Below are positions 46,606 to 52,177 of a DNA stretch of 64,000 bases, piece by piece. This DNA comes from Spirochaetia bacterium (GTDB taxonomy: Bacteria > Spirochaetota > Spirochaetia > Sphaerochaetales > Sphaerochaetaceae), in contig JAKVOU010000001.1 in NCBI GenBank assembly GCA_022482625.1, positions 434,001 through 498,000 on the forward strand. The letters are read 5' to 3'. A program made the position numbers and the translations under genes. Below the pieces are notes generated by a model. The model saw only the letters and a list, made by a program, of their open reading frames with translations. It was not told the origin of the DNA and made no database searches. Numbering within the stretch: position 1 is the first letter of the stretch; each line of letters starts with the position of its first letter.

Positions 46606-46900
46606 ACATCAGGGCATGCGCTTCTAAGATGAATTATAATTGTCCATAGTCATTCTTTTCACTTTAATTCTCTATACAACTCCGCCATTACGTTCTTGTT
46701 TGTATAATTTTATATATTCACTATAAGATGAAATATCAAATTCGACATACTGTGCAATAAGTACCAATATTTGATTTTCTGATTTCTAATACTTACATAA
46801 CTTATTCAAGCCATAGATTTTCACATGGCAAACAACGGCGAATTCAGATCCTTTAGTTCCAAAAGATATGCTATATCGTTTGGAACACATAAAATTGTAA
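46606..46900. other. A/T-rich spacer downstream of the protease gene
   Basis: 295 bases without a gene, marking the change from host-like composition to the A/T-rich island. The only clear structure is the hairpin at 46856-46886. Confidence 0.5.
46856..46886. repeat. Strong stem-loop just 3' of the protease gene
   Basis: GTTCCAAA (46856-46863) pairs with TTTGGAAC (46879-46886). One mismatch inside, GATAT (46865-46869) pairs with ATATC (46873-46877) around a 3-nt loop GCT. It begins 15 nt past the protease stop. No T-run follows on the minus strand, so it is an mRNA 3' stem or an element boundary rather than a classical terminator. Confidence 0.7.
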
Positions 46901-49135
46901 TTATTTCAAAGAAAGATCTTCCTCAGACTTGTTATAGATATCAAATCTATTCTTTATGTCAATCTGATTCACAATCCAACCACGAACCATACAAAGTTTG
47001 ATAAAATCGTCTATTCGATTTTCACCAGACATTTCTTTAAGTGTAACGACAACGCCGAATGGTAATCTCCTACCATTTTTGACACGCAGTCTTTCTTTTA
47101 CTTTAATACTAAGACCCCAAGTACCTACGCCATAAACTTTTCGTGGTTTTGGTCTATTTGTAATGATGTCACTTACAAGTTTTATATTGTCCCACTTGCG
47201 ATATAATTTTCGAGCTTCTTCTTCAAAAAGTGGATTAACTCCCATGTCACCTTGCCTGTTTGCATTTATCGATTTAATTGTTGCTTTGCCGTTATCTTCT
47301 TTTACACGTCCAAAGTGAACATCCATTTCTGTACTGGTATAATCAACGCCTTGAGTTCTAAGACACTTTGGAAAATAACAAAGTGTTGCCCTTGCAAAAA
47401 ATGGCTGTTTATTTTTATAAATCGGAATAGGAATGTTATAGGTAAATGTTTCATAAGCATCGCATGTTCCAGTCAGAATAAATCTAATTTCATCATTTGG
47501 AGTTTGGATAATATTTTCAATTCGTTGTGGAACAACACCATAACCAATAGAATGTGACAAAGTATTCATATCCATTCTATTCCATCCTGCAGCTGCATCA
47601 ATAAGTAACGCTTTGGCAACTTCTCTGGTAAAACCCATGTTATATATCAAATATGCCATTTTTCTTGAAATCCAAGGTGCTGAAAACGAAGTGCCCATAA
47701 CGAACCCTTCACCACAAGGAGTGCAGACTTTCATTGGCTGTCCTATGTCTCCTCCATAATAACTGATATCTGGCTTATGAAAGAAAGAAAGAACAGGACC
47801 GACACGATGATATGAGGCAGGTTTATTAGTTAAGTTTACTGAATTAACCACAATAGCATTCAATGAATCCGCAGGAGCACCTATTGGCATCTTCTCTGGG
47901 GAATCATTTCTTTTGTTAGTTCCGGCAATAACAAAAATAATATCGTAATCACTTTGGATCTTATCAAGCTCTGCAGCTTCGGGGGATATAAAGTTCCTAT
48001 TGATCGGCATATCAGAACCAAGTGATAAATTCCAAACCTTTATGTCCTGATTCCTAGCAACAATTTCACGTATTGCTTTCAAAATACTGAAGGAACTAAA
48101 ACGTCCTGCTTTCGCGACACCAAAGTGTTTGACTTTAAACCTACCACAACCATCATCTAATTCAGGATTAATAGTTGGTCCATCAACAATAATAGATGTC
48201 ACCTCTGTTCCATGATTGTAATCTCGAGGCTCAAGTTCAATGCCCTCATCTATCATAGAAACATAAGTAACCCATTCATTGAAATATACTTTTTTATCGA
48301 AAGGTGTATCAATAACACCAACTGTCGGTTCCTGATGGGGCGCTGGAATATCAACGATTTTTGTATTGCTATTACGTGCTTCTTCTGGAGTCACTTCCCT
48401 TAAATCTCGAACTTTCATAGCAATCAGGTAGGGGGCATTTTCTTCTAACAGCTTAATTTCATCCGGCTCCAAACGGATTGTAGTATCATCAATAACTTTT
48501 GCATTTATCATATCAATTCCCAGCTTACTAAGTAAATCTTTAGTGGCAACATCTGTTTTGTAAATGGTTATAATTGAGCGGTCTTCTATGCCCTCAACAT
48601 CCTGGTCAACATCGAATCTTTGCACATAGTAAGCATCCTTAACGACCCTTAAAAAATTAGTCTTTGCAAGTTTTGTGTTTCTGTAGGCTTTGCGTTTTTT
48701 ATTGAGTGATTCAATATCTTCTTGCGTTATCTTTCCTTTGTATTCAGTTTTTACGACATCAATACAGACACTTAACCGATCAATAGACTCTTGCAAATCA
48801 TCTAGCATTACATAATGCGTAAAGACATGTTTTATCGGGTTCTCGCCATCAAATTTTGACCCTCTGATTGAATCGTTTGGATCAGAGGAGCCTTTACATA
48901 ATAAACCTCGAATTCTATTGCTCTTTGCAACAACGTGTTTATAATGTACACTTACAAGAGCACCTTTTATCAATGTATTTTCCTGCCAAAAACGTAGTAT
49001 ATGTTGCAGTTGATTTCTTAAATCCTCAAGATGATTTGATTCAACAAAACCATTTGTAGGCAAACTTGGAGAGCCAGCTTTACTTTGGTTATTTTGCTGT
49101 TGAAATTGACCTTTTAATTGTAATATGTTATTCAC
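46901..49135 (-). CDS. Subtilisin-like (S8) serine protease, IetS-type
   Basis: 744 residues. Catalytic triad: Asp276 (TVGVIDTPFD), His308 (DYNHGTEV), Ser483 (GTSFSAPW); IAGTN (~403-407) is the probable oxyanion region. There is no signal peptide or membrane segment, so it is intracellular. The N-terminal ~270 residues and C-terminal ~200 are not protease fold and are unassigned. The GTG at 49135 abuts the TAA of the AAA+ gene, with AAAGGGG upstream. An AAA+ ATPase followed directly by such a protease matches the ietA-ietS pair, a plasmid-stability module later shown to defend against phage. That this copy is functional is inference. Confidence 0.85.
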   Translation of the reverse strand: MNNILQLKGQFQQQNNQSKAGSPSLPTNGFVESNHLEDLRNQLQHILRFWQENTLIKGALVSVHYKHVVAKSNRIRGLLCKGSSDPNDSIRGSKFDGENPIKHVFTHYVMLDDLQESIDRLSVCIDVVKTEYKGKITQEDIESLNKKRKAYRNTKLAKTNFLRVVKDAYYVQRFDVDQDVEGIEDRSIITIYKTDVATKDLLSKLGIDMINAKVIDDTTIRLEPDEIKLLEENAPYLIAMKVRDLREVTPEEARNSNTKIVDIPAPHQEPTVGVIDTPFDKKVYFNEWVTYVSMIDEGIELEPRDYNHGTEVTSIIVDGPTINPELDDGCGRFKVKHFGVAKAGRFSSFSILKAIREIVARNQDIKVWNLSLGSDMPINRNFISPEAAELDKIQSDYDIIFVIAGTNKRNDSPEKMPIGAPADSLNAIVVNSVNLTNKPASYHRVGPVLSFFHKPDISYYGGDIGQPMKVCTPCGEGFVMGTSFSAPWISRKMAYLIYNMGFTREVAKALLIDAAAGWNRMDMNTLSHSIGYGVVPQRIENIIQTPNDEIRFILTGTCDAYETFTYNIPIPIYKNKQPFFARATLCYFPKCLRTQGVDYTSTEMDVHFGRVKEDNGKATIKSINANRQGDMGVNPLFEEEARKLYRKWDNIKLVSDIITNRPKPRKVYGVGTWGLSIKVKERLRVKNGRRLPFGVVVTLKEMSGENRIDDFIKLCMVRGWIVNQIDIKNRFDIYNKSEEDLSLK

Positions 49136-50176
49136 TTAATTTTTCCCCTTTAAATCTCTGGAAACTTGGCTTTTTGAGACTCCTGTCAGAATCTCTATTT
49201 CTCTCACCGTAAAACCTTGTTTCTGAAGCTTTTTTAGATTGGCTGTTTGCTCTCTGTTTACGGCATAATACAGACGTTTCAGATAATCAAATCCATCGCT
49301 AGGATTACTAAAAGCAATTGCTGTACGAATAATATTCTTTAAATCTCCCGGATACGGAAGAGGATCCAGTAAATTTATTATCTTTCTAAAAAGCCGAACA
49401 TTTCTACCAACACATTTAAATTTGTTTAAAAAGTCATTCATTAGAATTTCGGCAATTTCCAATAGATCTTCTCTGCTATACCGATTAAAGTCTATTGTTG
49501 AATCAAACCGCCTTATCAAGGCTTTATCGAAATGTTCGAATAGATTTGTTGTTGCAATTAAAACAATCCGATCATCCAAACGATCAAGTCCTTTCAAAAT
49601 TGTAGAAGTAGCTCTACCCATTTCACGTAAATCGTTGGAATTAGTACGATCCATTGCAATCGAATCGATTTCATCAAACAGGATAAGTACTTTTTCAGGG
49701 TGAGCAAAGCTGTTAATCTCCTTAAAGAGTGAATCAATGTTTTTTTGCGTTTGGCCAAGTTTGCTATCGATTACAATGGAAAAATTCACAGAATATAATT
49801 CTCGTTCCAAAATACGAGCAACTTGTTTTGCTGTTTCAGTCTTTCCGGTTCCTGGAGCACCTTGGAATAGAAATTTATTAATTCCCAAATTACGTCCTAC
49901 GGCATTTACCAAGCCAATTATATCTTTTTCAAGAGAATCAGGTAACGGGAGCGGTGTGTTACTAACATTTAATTTTTCAAAAAAGCCAGAAGGACTCTCG
50001 CTCATTTGAGGAATGAATGTATTTGCATCTGACAACAGAGCCATAATATATTCGGCTAACTGAGAATCTCCTGCAGAATCAAAGTCTTTAGCAATTTCAT
50101 ATGCTTCACTCCTAAAACCTGCATCATTTTCTTCTGCATGGTACTTTATTAAATTAATTATGTTCTTCTTTTTCAT
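49136..50176 (-). CDS. AAA+ ATPase, IetA-type, with C-terminal helix-turn-helix
   Basis: 346 residues. Walker A GAPGTGKT (106-113), Walker B LILFDE (164-169), sensor-1 Asn211 in IATTN, arginine finger RRFD (222-225). Residues ~319-341 (GFTVREIEILTGVSKSQVSR) read as a helix-turn-helix at the very C-terminus. It is the first gene of a two-gene operon with the S8 protease. In the ietAS pair the ATPase restrains the protease; here that is inferred from the arrangement. Base composition is clearly more A/T-rich than the flanking core genes. AAGGGGCG precedes the ATG. Confidence 0.87.
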   Translation of the reverse strand: MKKKNIINLIKYHAEENDAGFRSEAYEIAKDFDSAGDSQLAEYIMALLSDANTFIPQMSESPSGFFEKLNVSNTPLPLPDSLEKDIIGLVNAVGRNLGINKFLFQGAPGTGKTETAKQVARILERELYSVNFSIVIDSKLGQTQKNIDSLFKEINSFAHPEKVLILFDEIDSIAMDRTNSNDLREMGRATSTILKGLDRLDDRIVLIATTNLFEHFDKALIRRFDSTIDFNRYSREDLLEIAEILMNDFLNKFKCVGRNVRLFRKIINLLDPLPYPGDLKNIIRTAIAFSNPSDGFDYLKRLYYAVNREQTANLKKLQKQGFTVREIEILTGVSKSQVSRDLKGKN

Positions 50177-50206
50177 ATAGAGACGCCCCTTGTAAAATTC
50201 AATCTC

Positions 50207-50247
50207 AGTATATCACATATGGGACAAAAGTCAATATATTGGGACAA
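50207..50247 (-). promoter_or_regulatory. Promoter with two direct-repeat operators for the AAA+/S8 operon
   Basis: On the minus strand: TTGACT (50234-50229), 16-bp spacer, TATACT (50212-50207). The 8-mer TTGTCCCA occurs twice, at 50227-50220 inside the spacer and at 50247-50240 just upstream of the -35, exactly 20 bp apart. Repeats on one helix face across a promoter suggest repressor binding; the HTH of the AAA+ protein is a candidate. Confidence 0.7.
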
Positions 50248-51035
50248 TTTTTCAATTTATTCAGCTTGACTTTCTGCATCATCTATCAAAACAGCTTATA
50301 TAGTCTACACTAATTTTTATAGCTGAAATGACTACCCACGACAAAGCTTCAAAACGCTTTAGCTTGACTCGAAAAGAACATCTGTTTTCTTACTATGTAT
50401 TAAGATAATGTCATTAGTGCTCTATAGTTTTCATTGCACAAAACATACATGAGGACTTCTCTCATAACTACAATAGCCAAAAACGACATTGATTGCGAGC
50501 CCTACAACTCATATAGCGAGAAACTTATCAAATTTTAAGGTATTACCAGAATAGTAGTTCTCCAAGAACTTCAGTCAGCAGACATAGTTGTGGAACGACA
50601 GAACGAGTATAGCAGCAGCAAACAAGGTTATTCTCAACTCACAAAACAGGAGAAATGCCCAATGGAATTGCTGATCAGTTCATAGAGACCTTCGTTCCCA
50701 GAAAGTAAACAAAAAAAGTGATTGACAAAAACAAATAGGTAAAAAAAATCATAAGACGGTCTGGATATACTTGTATTGGCAAAAAGCTACTCAACCAGCT
50801 GCAAAACTTCAGTTATTTTGATAAAAACGTTCTTGCTAATTTATTACTGAGGTTGCAAGCAAAAAGGGCTCATTACCCATAATCATTGTAATAAATAGTA
50901 AAATCATTTGGAGCATCTTATACCGGATATTACAAACATATAAAACGGAGAAATCGCACCGTCATACAAAAATTGACGTATAACCAATGACAGGCAATGC
51001 AAAACACCATACAATTTTTCCGATTCGGCATTGCA
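50248..51035. other. Non-coding A/T-rich stretch between island modules
   Basis: About 790 bases. I see no open frame of protein-like composition, no tRNA and no strong hairpin. It probably consists of decayed sequence between the ietAS-like operon and the toxin-antitoxin remnant. Confidence 0.5.
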
Positions 51036-51242
51036 TTATTTACTGAACAAAACGCTGTGAGTCCCGATGCGTGCCAGTATCAGTACAAGAATATCATTCC
51101 CTACACGATACACAAGCAACCAGTCGCTTTGAATATGATATTTCCGACGCTCTATCGATTTAATAGTGCGTGATTGCGGTTTGTTTCGGGAAGCGACTCG
51201 CCTTTGGCAAGCAGGCAAATGCTATTGTCCAGCAGATCCATG
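51036..51242 (-). pseudogene. YafQ/RelE-type toxin remnant
   Basis: Two frames make up the C-terminal two thirds of a YafQ-like mRNA interferase. MDLLDNSICLLAKGESLPET then NRNHALLN lies in one frame from 51242 and meets a stop. YHIQSDWLLVYRVGNDILVL then ILARIGTHSVLF lies in another and ends at 51036. Real YafQ toxins are ~90 residues with the same HxxPDWLLIY...RTGTHSDLF order. The N-terminal part and the middle glycine-rich link are missing or frameshifted. Not functional. Confidence 0.7.
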
Positions 51243-51283
51243 CTTCACCCACGCCTCATCTCCAGCTTGTAATCCTTCTTGAA

Positions 51284-51472
51284 TCATGAAGTCAAAACAA
51301 TTCCAACTTCATTTTTAAGTTCCCGCAACGATTCTTCTACATCGCTGTAGTGCTTTACATTGGAATCTCGGACAGTACATTCAGCTTCTTGCATAGTGTC
51401 AATGGTAACAGCATTCGGTGTGTTGAGCACCACATCAAACGGAAAAACACCCAATCGAAGCGACTGTATCAA
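51284..51472 (-). pseudogene. DinJ/RelB-type antitoxin remnant
   Basis: QSLRLGVFPFDV, then NTPNAVTIDTMQEAE and NVKHYSDVEESLRELK, is the C-terminal half of a DinJ/RelB antitoxin, just upstream of the YafQ remnant as expected. The N-terminal ribbon-helix-helix DNA-binding part is gone; sequence similarity stops right beside the TetR operator at 51488, pointing to a deletion or replacement junction near 51,475. Confidence 0.65.
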
Positions 51473-51487
51473 GATATAAAAAACTAT

Positions 51488-51513
51488 ATTAATGACTGAC
51501 GTCAGTCATTAAT
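51488..51513. promoter_or_regulatory. Perfect 26-bp palindromic operator for the TetR regulator
   Basis: ATTAATGACTGAC followed by its exact reverse complement, 16 bp before the tetR ATG at 51530. Long perfect palindromes in this position are typical TetR operators, so autorepression of tetR and the cotranscribed hydrolase is expected. Confidence 0.85.
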
Positions 51514-51529
51514 TATATGGAGGATTTGT

Positions 51530-52177
51530 ATGTCTAGACCGGCAGTAACCAAAAAGGAAGATATCATTGCAGCAGCACTGGCAATGTTCAGAAAAAAAGG
51601 AGTGAACAATACCACTGTGAGCGATATTGCAAAGGAAGCTCATGTCGCACAAGGCACATTCTATAACTACTTCCGGTCAAAAGACGACATATTTGCAGAA
51701 GTATTGGAAAAAGCTACGGAACATACCCTTGAGGAAACACAGAAAACAGTACAGAAAGAAGATATCGGCCCTGTTGAAAAACTGAAGCTTCTGGTACAAC
51801 AGGATTTCATGATGAACCGTCGGAATGACAGTCTGTTCGATGTACTGCATGAACCCAGGTATGCCTATGCCCATCAGAAATATATCGTAAACCGTATACT
51901 GAAGCTGAAACCGATCTGTGCAGGGCTGATCAGGCAAAGCGTTGATGCAGGATACTTCGACACACCTTATCCTGAAGAAACGGCTTTGCTTCTGCTGACA
52001 ACCCAGAAATTTGTATTTGACCCGGCTTTTTTCCATTTGGATGGAACTGAAATACTTAAGATGATAGCACCTTTCGGAAATTTTGTAGAACGTGTCCTCG
52101 GCGCAAAACATGATCCAACTATGGAAAAGGACTGGAAACAGAATATCTTACAATATTTTGGAGATGGCATAAAATGA
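51530..52177 (+). CDS. TetR/AcrR family transcriptional regulator
   Basis: 215 residues. N-terminal HTH about residues 10-56: KKEDIIAAALAMFRKKGVNN, TTVSDIAKEAHVAQGTFYNYF. The ligand-binding C-domain is all helical and unassigned. TGGAGG precedes the ATG. It overlaps the alpha/beta hydrolase by 4 nt, so the hydrolase is very likely its target and the hydrolase substrate a possible inducer. Confidence 0.93.
   Translation: MSRPAVTKKEDIIAAALAMFRKKGVNNTTVSDIAKEAHVAQGTFYNYFRSKDDIFAEVLEKATEHTLEETQKTVQKEDIGPVEKLKLLVQQDFMMNRRNDSLFDVLHEPRYAYAHQKYIVNRILKLKPICAGLIRQSVDAGYFDTPYPEETALLLLTTQKFVFDPAFFHLDGTEILKMIAPFGNFVERVLGAKHDPTMEKDWKQNILQYFGDGIK

Follow-up and report, generated by a model that had tools for sequence, protein, structure and literature searches.

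The stretch of DNA considered here (the window) comprises 64,000 nucleotides of the Spirochaetia bacterium contig JAKVOU010000001.1 (positions 434,001 to 498,000 of the forward strand; positions given below are those of the window). Its minus strand carries an ietA-like gene (49136-50176; 346 amino acids, ATG start) encoding an AAA+ ATPase and, downstream of it, an ietS-like gene (46901-49135; 744 amino acids, GTG start) encoding an S8 protease. The TAA of the first gene directly abuts the GTG of the second, and both frames are uninterrupted. Ahead of the ATPase gene, two TGTCCCA boxes flank the -35 element of a predicted promoter. An earlier note, made from the sequence alone, had described an IetAS-like module with its own operator in an A/T-rich island; the gene order, the stop-against-start junction and the intact catalytic residues that it listed are borne out by the open reading frames and by the invariance of those residues among homologues.

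The gene pair and its proteins

IetA is made up of an N-terminal helical part (residues ~1-50), an AAA+ domain (~60-309; Pfam PF00004, 1.5e-25) and a predicted C-terminal helix-turn-helix (HTH; helices at 314-319, 324-331 and 335-343). IetS has an N-terminal part (1-265), an S8 catalytic domain (~268-545; PF00082, 1.2e-33) and a C-terminal beta-rich part (~549-740). The Walker A residues K112/T113, the Walker B residues D168/E169, the sensor-1 residue N211 and the arginines R222/R223 are invariant in 46 of 46 IetA homologues; the same is true of the catalytic Asp276, His308 and Ser483 and of the oxyanion Asn407 in 50 of 50 homologues of IetS.

AlphaFold models of the two proteins are fairly confident (predicted local distance difference test, pLDDT, 85.6 for IetA and 83.0 for IetS). 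The core of IetA is a classical AAA domain, for which the best VIA match is NVL (Z 19.9, root-mean-square deviation 2.6, 225 residues), with proteasomal ATPases, FtsH, Vps4 and TRIP13 just behind; the core of IetS has the subtilase/S8 fold (VIA Z ~27). The beta-rich C-terminal part of IetS aligns to KP-43/SubHal (3.0-3.1 Angstrom over ~357 residues), and at the other end the structural alignment to ProN-Tk-SP (3afg) extends back to residue 94. (A fold missing from the VIA rows was not read as lack of relation.) The leading structural matches are to AAA+ and S8 folds in general and do not point to any one housekeeping protease system, as suits an IetAS assignment. An I9-like subtilisin propeptide in the N-terminal part of IetS, which the reach of the 3afg alignment might suggest, finds support neither in Pfam nor in a profile of residues 162-262 compared with the PDB. 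The very N-terminus of IetS, MNxILQLKGxF (49135-49103, minus strand), is strongly conserved in homologues, and so is an acidic C-terminal tail.

How closely the pair is related to the systems that bear the IetAS name depends on how widely the name is applied. PADLOC recognises both proteins (IetA, PDLC02196, 3.6e-39, residues 100-345; IetS, PDLC02197, 4.9e-64, residues 227-731), and the likeness extends to operon structure, an AAA+ ATPase gene followed by that of an S8 protease; the PADLOC profiles describe proteins only, with no operator. The cut-offs of the NCBIfam IteA/IteS anti-phage equivalogs (NF042959 and NF042956) are not reached, the two proteins scoring 102.5 and 156.6 bits where 510 and 900 are required, and these matches cover only residues 100-250 and 247-728. 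The PADLOC matches taken together with scores so far below the NCBIfam cut-offs make the pair, as judged from its sequence, a divergent subfamily within the wider, PADLOC-sense IetAS family and not the equivalog of the tested anti-phage pair. The earlier IetAS assignment holds at that wider level, but not at the level of the anti-phage equivalogs, and it left out two things: the HTH predicted at the C-terminus of IetA, and the published work in which relatives are toxin-antitoxins (PMC8562856, PMC5006074).

The operator and the predicted helix-turn-helix of IetA

Box 1 (50240-50246, minus strand) lies upstream of the -35 element and box 2 (50220-50226, minus strand), 20 bp from it, in the spacer between -35 and -10. 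The predicted sigma-70 promoter (50207-50234, minus strand) has its -35 element, TTGACT, at 50234-50229, a 16-nt spacer and its -10 element, TATACT, at 50212-50207. The operator is accordingly a 27-bp pair of direct repeats, TGTCCCA-N13-TGTCCCA, in the same orientation and flanking the -35 element. This pattern, at two or fewer mismatches, turns up on average 0.58 times in shuffled versions of the 64-kb window, so that in the window alone it could be a chance occurrence; its significance derives from its conservation among homologues and not from its rarity.

That conservation is extensive. In a first set, 102 of 106 upstream regions of homologues contain the two boxes with at least 12 of 14 matching positions and a spacing of 20 or 21; of shuffled upstream regions, 0.04% come as close as 12 of 14 and none comes as close as 13. 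When the set is extended to more divergent homologues, an automatic score finds HTH and operator together in 117 of 123, and one further case (L182), when its gene is read with genetic code 4, brings the count to 118. The two-box operator, at either spacing, thus precedes ietA in 118 of the 123 homologues with upstream DNA, in many phyla, and the operator proposed in the earlier note is borne out and carries more weight than the sequence of one locus could have told. Removing homologues with similar flanks leaves 94 non-redundant operators, in which information content peaks solely at the two boxes, TTGNN (-35) stands between the boxes in 73 (as against 18% after shuffling) and the -10 element mostly follows the -35 element by 17 nt.

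The exact operator is present as a single copy in the 3.47-Mb genome from which the window comes. It occurs in nine of 138 genomes of the same family, in four of them at ietA; no regulon was seen in these 138 genomes, the copies away from ietA matching the small background of a backward-pattern control. A literature search for TGTCCCA returned only chance matches in unrelated papers. The kind of gene pair is already known; its operator, and the link between that operator and the ATPase HTH, are apparently undescribed as far as the available parts of the literature under the IetAS name show, and for the founding pTiC58 subfamily an earlier report of autoregulation may exist.

What ties the operator to IetA is the C-terminus of the ATPase, a predicted three-helix unit with the conserved motif GFTVREIEILTGxSKSQVSRELK, together with what has happened to that motif where the operator is absent. 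This is the case in five of the 123 homologues. In the Mycoplasma hyorhinis protein (L035; 51% identical to the window IetA) the recognition helix is degenerate and the operator is gone; on two Ligilactobacillus salivarius plasmids (L037 and L038) and at L192, recognition helix and operator are both lost; and in Macrococcoides (L036) the recognition helix is changed and the upstream repeat is another one, spaced 41 bp. The boxes follow the pair from phylum to phylum through unrelated flanks, so whatever binds them should travel with the pair; for IetS, Pfam finds no DNA-binding domain. We infer from these sequence comparisons that IetA binds the boxes and represses its own operon.

Subfamilies of IetA farther removed from the window protein were compared by eye with respect to HTH and upstream repeats. 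Some have a C-terminal HTH of their own: upstream of these genes TGTCCAA occurs three times at two loci (L022 and L217) and TTTAATAAC is repeated 42 bp apart at two others (L023 and L025). Most of the subfamilies that have no HTH also have no upstream repeats. That self-regulation might be general across IetA subfamilies is only suggested by this comparison.

Relatives, mobility and surroundings

In the spirochaete family to which the window belongs, ~16 further genomes have full-length IetA homologues (54-69% identity) followed by IetS. From the GTDB representatives that were scanned, 80 loci at 64-92% identity were kept, with record names from Bacillota, Fibrobacterota, Spirochaetota, Mycoplasmatota, Sumerlaeota, Campylobacterota, Actinomycetota, Pseudomonadota, Melainabacteria and Patescibacteria. 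IetS adjoins IetA in nearly all full-length homologues, so that the co-occurrence expected of a genuine pair is indeed found; no IetS was found after IetA at L037, L038, L120 and L192. The full-length IetA proteins at L037 (6001-7005), L038 (6001-7005) and L192 are orphans, possibly stolen antidotes against IetS.

The closest relative is on a contig of a Megasphaera metagenome-assembled genome (L041), where IetA and IetS are 92% and 89% identical to the window proteins. In a maximum-likelihood tree, the window IetA pairs with this sequence (support 100/99) inside a mostly Bacillota group (100/98), apart from the other spirochaete sequences; many records in the tree are binned metagenome contigs, which calls for caution in reading transfer from it. 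At the DNA level, blastn aligns each of the four closest relatives with the window in one uninterrupted stretch: 46899-50261 for L041 (86%), 46898-50258 for L042, 46899-50247 for L044 and 46917-50251 for L043. Conservation runs from operator box 1 to the ietS stop, and what is conserved is therefore confined to the operator and the two genes. The window copy looks like a recent, Bacillota-like and mobile acquisition by horizontal transfer; the unit may move as a 3.3-kb cassette, or the Megasphaera contig may be misbinned. A search within the genus for an empty site found neither flank in the other three genomes. Beside the homologues in general there occur defence-type genes (AriA, DolA-like, Druantia-like, methylase-like and Fic) together with mobility genes; this is a record of occurrence and not of enrichment, from a survey with no control set.

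The earlier note had taken the pair for a chromosomal spirochaetal member kept functional. The recent arrival of a mobile copy is the better description, and intact frames are no proof of function. Its A/T-rich island is real (G+C 0.34-0.38 across ~46.5-51 kb, with 0.43-0.52 in the DNA to both sides). The decay that it attributed to the surrounding accessory genes holds only in part: adjoining ietAS is a dinJ/yafQ toxin-antitoxin remnant (51036-51472, minus strand) consisting of the last part of YafQ (PF15738, 4e-10) and, by eye, a RelB/DinJ-like tail, whereas the genes closest to the pair on its flanks (DUF1848, DUF2207, TetR, hydrolase) seem undamaged. Just upstream of the start of the TetR-family gene, at 51530, is a perfect 26-bp palindrome, ATTAATGACTGACGTCAGTCATTAAT (51488-51513), which is perhaps that regulator's own operator; a scan also scored it as terminator-like on the minus strand. 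Directly 3' of ietS is a dyad (46856-46886) with two 14-nt arms, 93% complementary, and a 3-nt loop. It could possibly form a stem-loop ending the transcript, the T run being unclear; the terminator scan made no call there, and the dyad lies outside the DNA conserved in the Megasphaera contig.

Elsewhere in this genome lies another IetAS-like locus, a divergent one (L173 7999-11631; C1 ~1617998-1621630). Its ATPase is intact, with its own C-terminal HTH, and its protease is split between two frames, with the catalytic Asp in one and the His and Ser in the other: on this sequence the toxin is broken and the antitoxin kept.

Proposed function and its alternatives

Type II toxin-antitoxin operons have the antitoxin gene first and coupled to the toxin gene, a DNA-binding antitoxin and an operator over the promoter. 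The ietAS locus has the same gene order, coupling and operator placement; it differs in that the putative antitoxin is a 346-residue AAA+ ATPase and the operator a direct repeat, not a palindrome. The reading that we favour, with a probability of about three in four, is that the pair is a horizontally acquired, self-repressing toxin-antitoxin/defence operon of the IetAS type, with IetA as both antitoxin and repressor. It builds on what the sequences themselves show: membership of the family, active sites that are intact, the pairing of the genes, the HTH as predicted, and an operator that is conserved and is lost together with the HTH. IetS would be a cytoplasmic S8 protease acting as the toxic effector and IetA the ATPase that restrains it. 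The C-terminal HTH of IetA would bind both TGTCCCA direct repeats, which lie two turns of the helix apart on either side of the -35 element, and a repressor so placed would block the ietAS promoter; direct rather than inverted repeats would suit AAA+ subunits arrayed head to tail along the same side of the DNA. Were IetA lost or inactivated, because of phage infection or because the element is lost, IetS would be set free and the promoter opened at the same time.

For the window copy, toxicity, its neutralisation and any role in defence are inferred by analogy with relatives. The toxin of the Mycoplasma mycoides AAA-ATPase/subtilisin pair TA132/3 kills and the ATPase neutralises it; gene order is the same and the proteins are of similar size (353 and 757 amino acids), but the available text on that pair describes no operator or autoregulation (PMC8562856). 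The sgiAT system of SGI1, likewise an AAA-ATPase antitoxin with an S8 toxin, is a toxin-antitoxin system that stabilises its element, and in the published description it is likened to IetA/IetS of pTiC58 (PMC5006074).

Several observations weigh against the favoured reading. The tested anti-phage equivalogs are distant relatives of the window pair. The losses of the operator are few and represent only three or four independent lineages. The SGI1 promoter is reported to be strongly active in Salmonella without treatment (PMC9927553), and regulation may therefore differ between subfamilies. Finally, the HTH matches are weak, being spread over several Pfam families at E ~0.003-0.1, all under the curated cut-offs.

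The strongest competing account, less likely than not but worth serious consideration, is of a plain toxin-antitoxin stabiliser of islands, plasmids and prophages, with phage defence incidental and the operator setting a low, balanced protein level. The pTiC58 and SGI1 relatives do act in element stability (PMC5006074); complete pairs are found on a Carnobacterium plasmid, on a Macrococcoides plasmid and on six viral contigs (L121-L126; these came from an alignment query, the single-protein scan of viral contigs having shown no close relatives); and the window copy, in its A/T-rich island, is nested among Bacillota sequences. On the other hand, distant relatives bear the PADLOC/NCBIfam anti-phage label, and a Pf phage carrying IetAS is linked to phage resistance (PMC11878078). 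Stabilisation and defence can, moreover, coexist.

The low HTH scores, and the fact that the assignment of the boxes to IetA is drawn from sequence, leave some room for a host factor or other regulator as their binder, the C-terminal helices of IetA serving ring assembly or contact with IetS instead. This is improbable: the pair keeps these boxes in one phylum after another although its flanks are unrelated, its other member has no DNA-binding domain in Pfam, the boxes go when the recognition helix goes, and repeats of another sequence but of conserved geometry occur in further IetA subfamilies that have an HTH. Equally hard to credit is an inactive remnant, with frames intact and the pair unexpressed or nonfunctional in its own genome, for although the adjoining dinJ/yafQ pair has decayed and the protease of the second locus is broken, nothing is broken in the catalytic residues, the promoter or either operator box, and in the closest relative both proteins persist, 89-92% identical.

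The self-repressing operon might be taken one step further, in a direction that we consider speculative and rather unlikely: IetA could act as a DnaA-like switch, in which a single AAA+ ring, governed by its nucleotide state, would both hold the protease and lie head to tail on the operator repeats. A single event, whether infection or extra operator DNA that titrates IetA away, would then free the protease and open the promoter, and the orphan IetA proteins would be stolen antidotes that disarm IetS.

IetAS systems are widespread; their mechanism of action was still called unknown in 2025 (PMC11878078) and the authors of the SGI1 work left the mechanisms of regulation of its relative to be identified (PMC5006074). 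A 27-bp operator that crosses phyla and goes with the ATPase HTH offers a direct and inexpensive way in: it predicts the target of IetA, the position of that target and the effect of removing the helix or the boxes. If the favoured reading is true, an AAA+ ATPase would be antitoxin and repressor in one.

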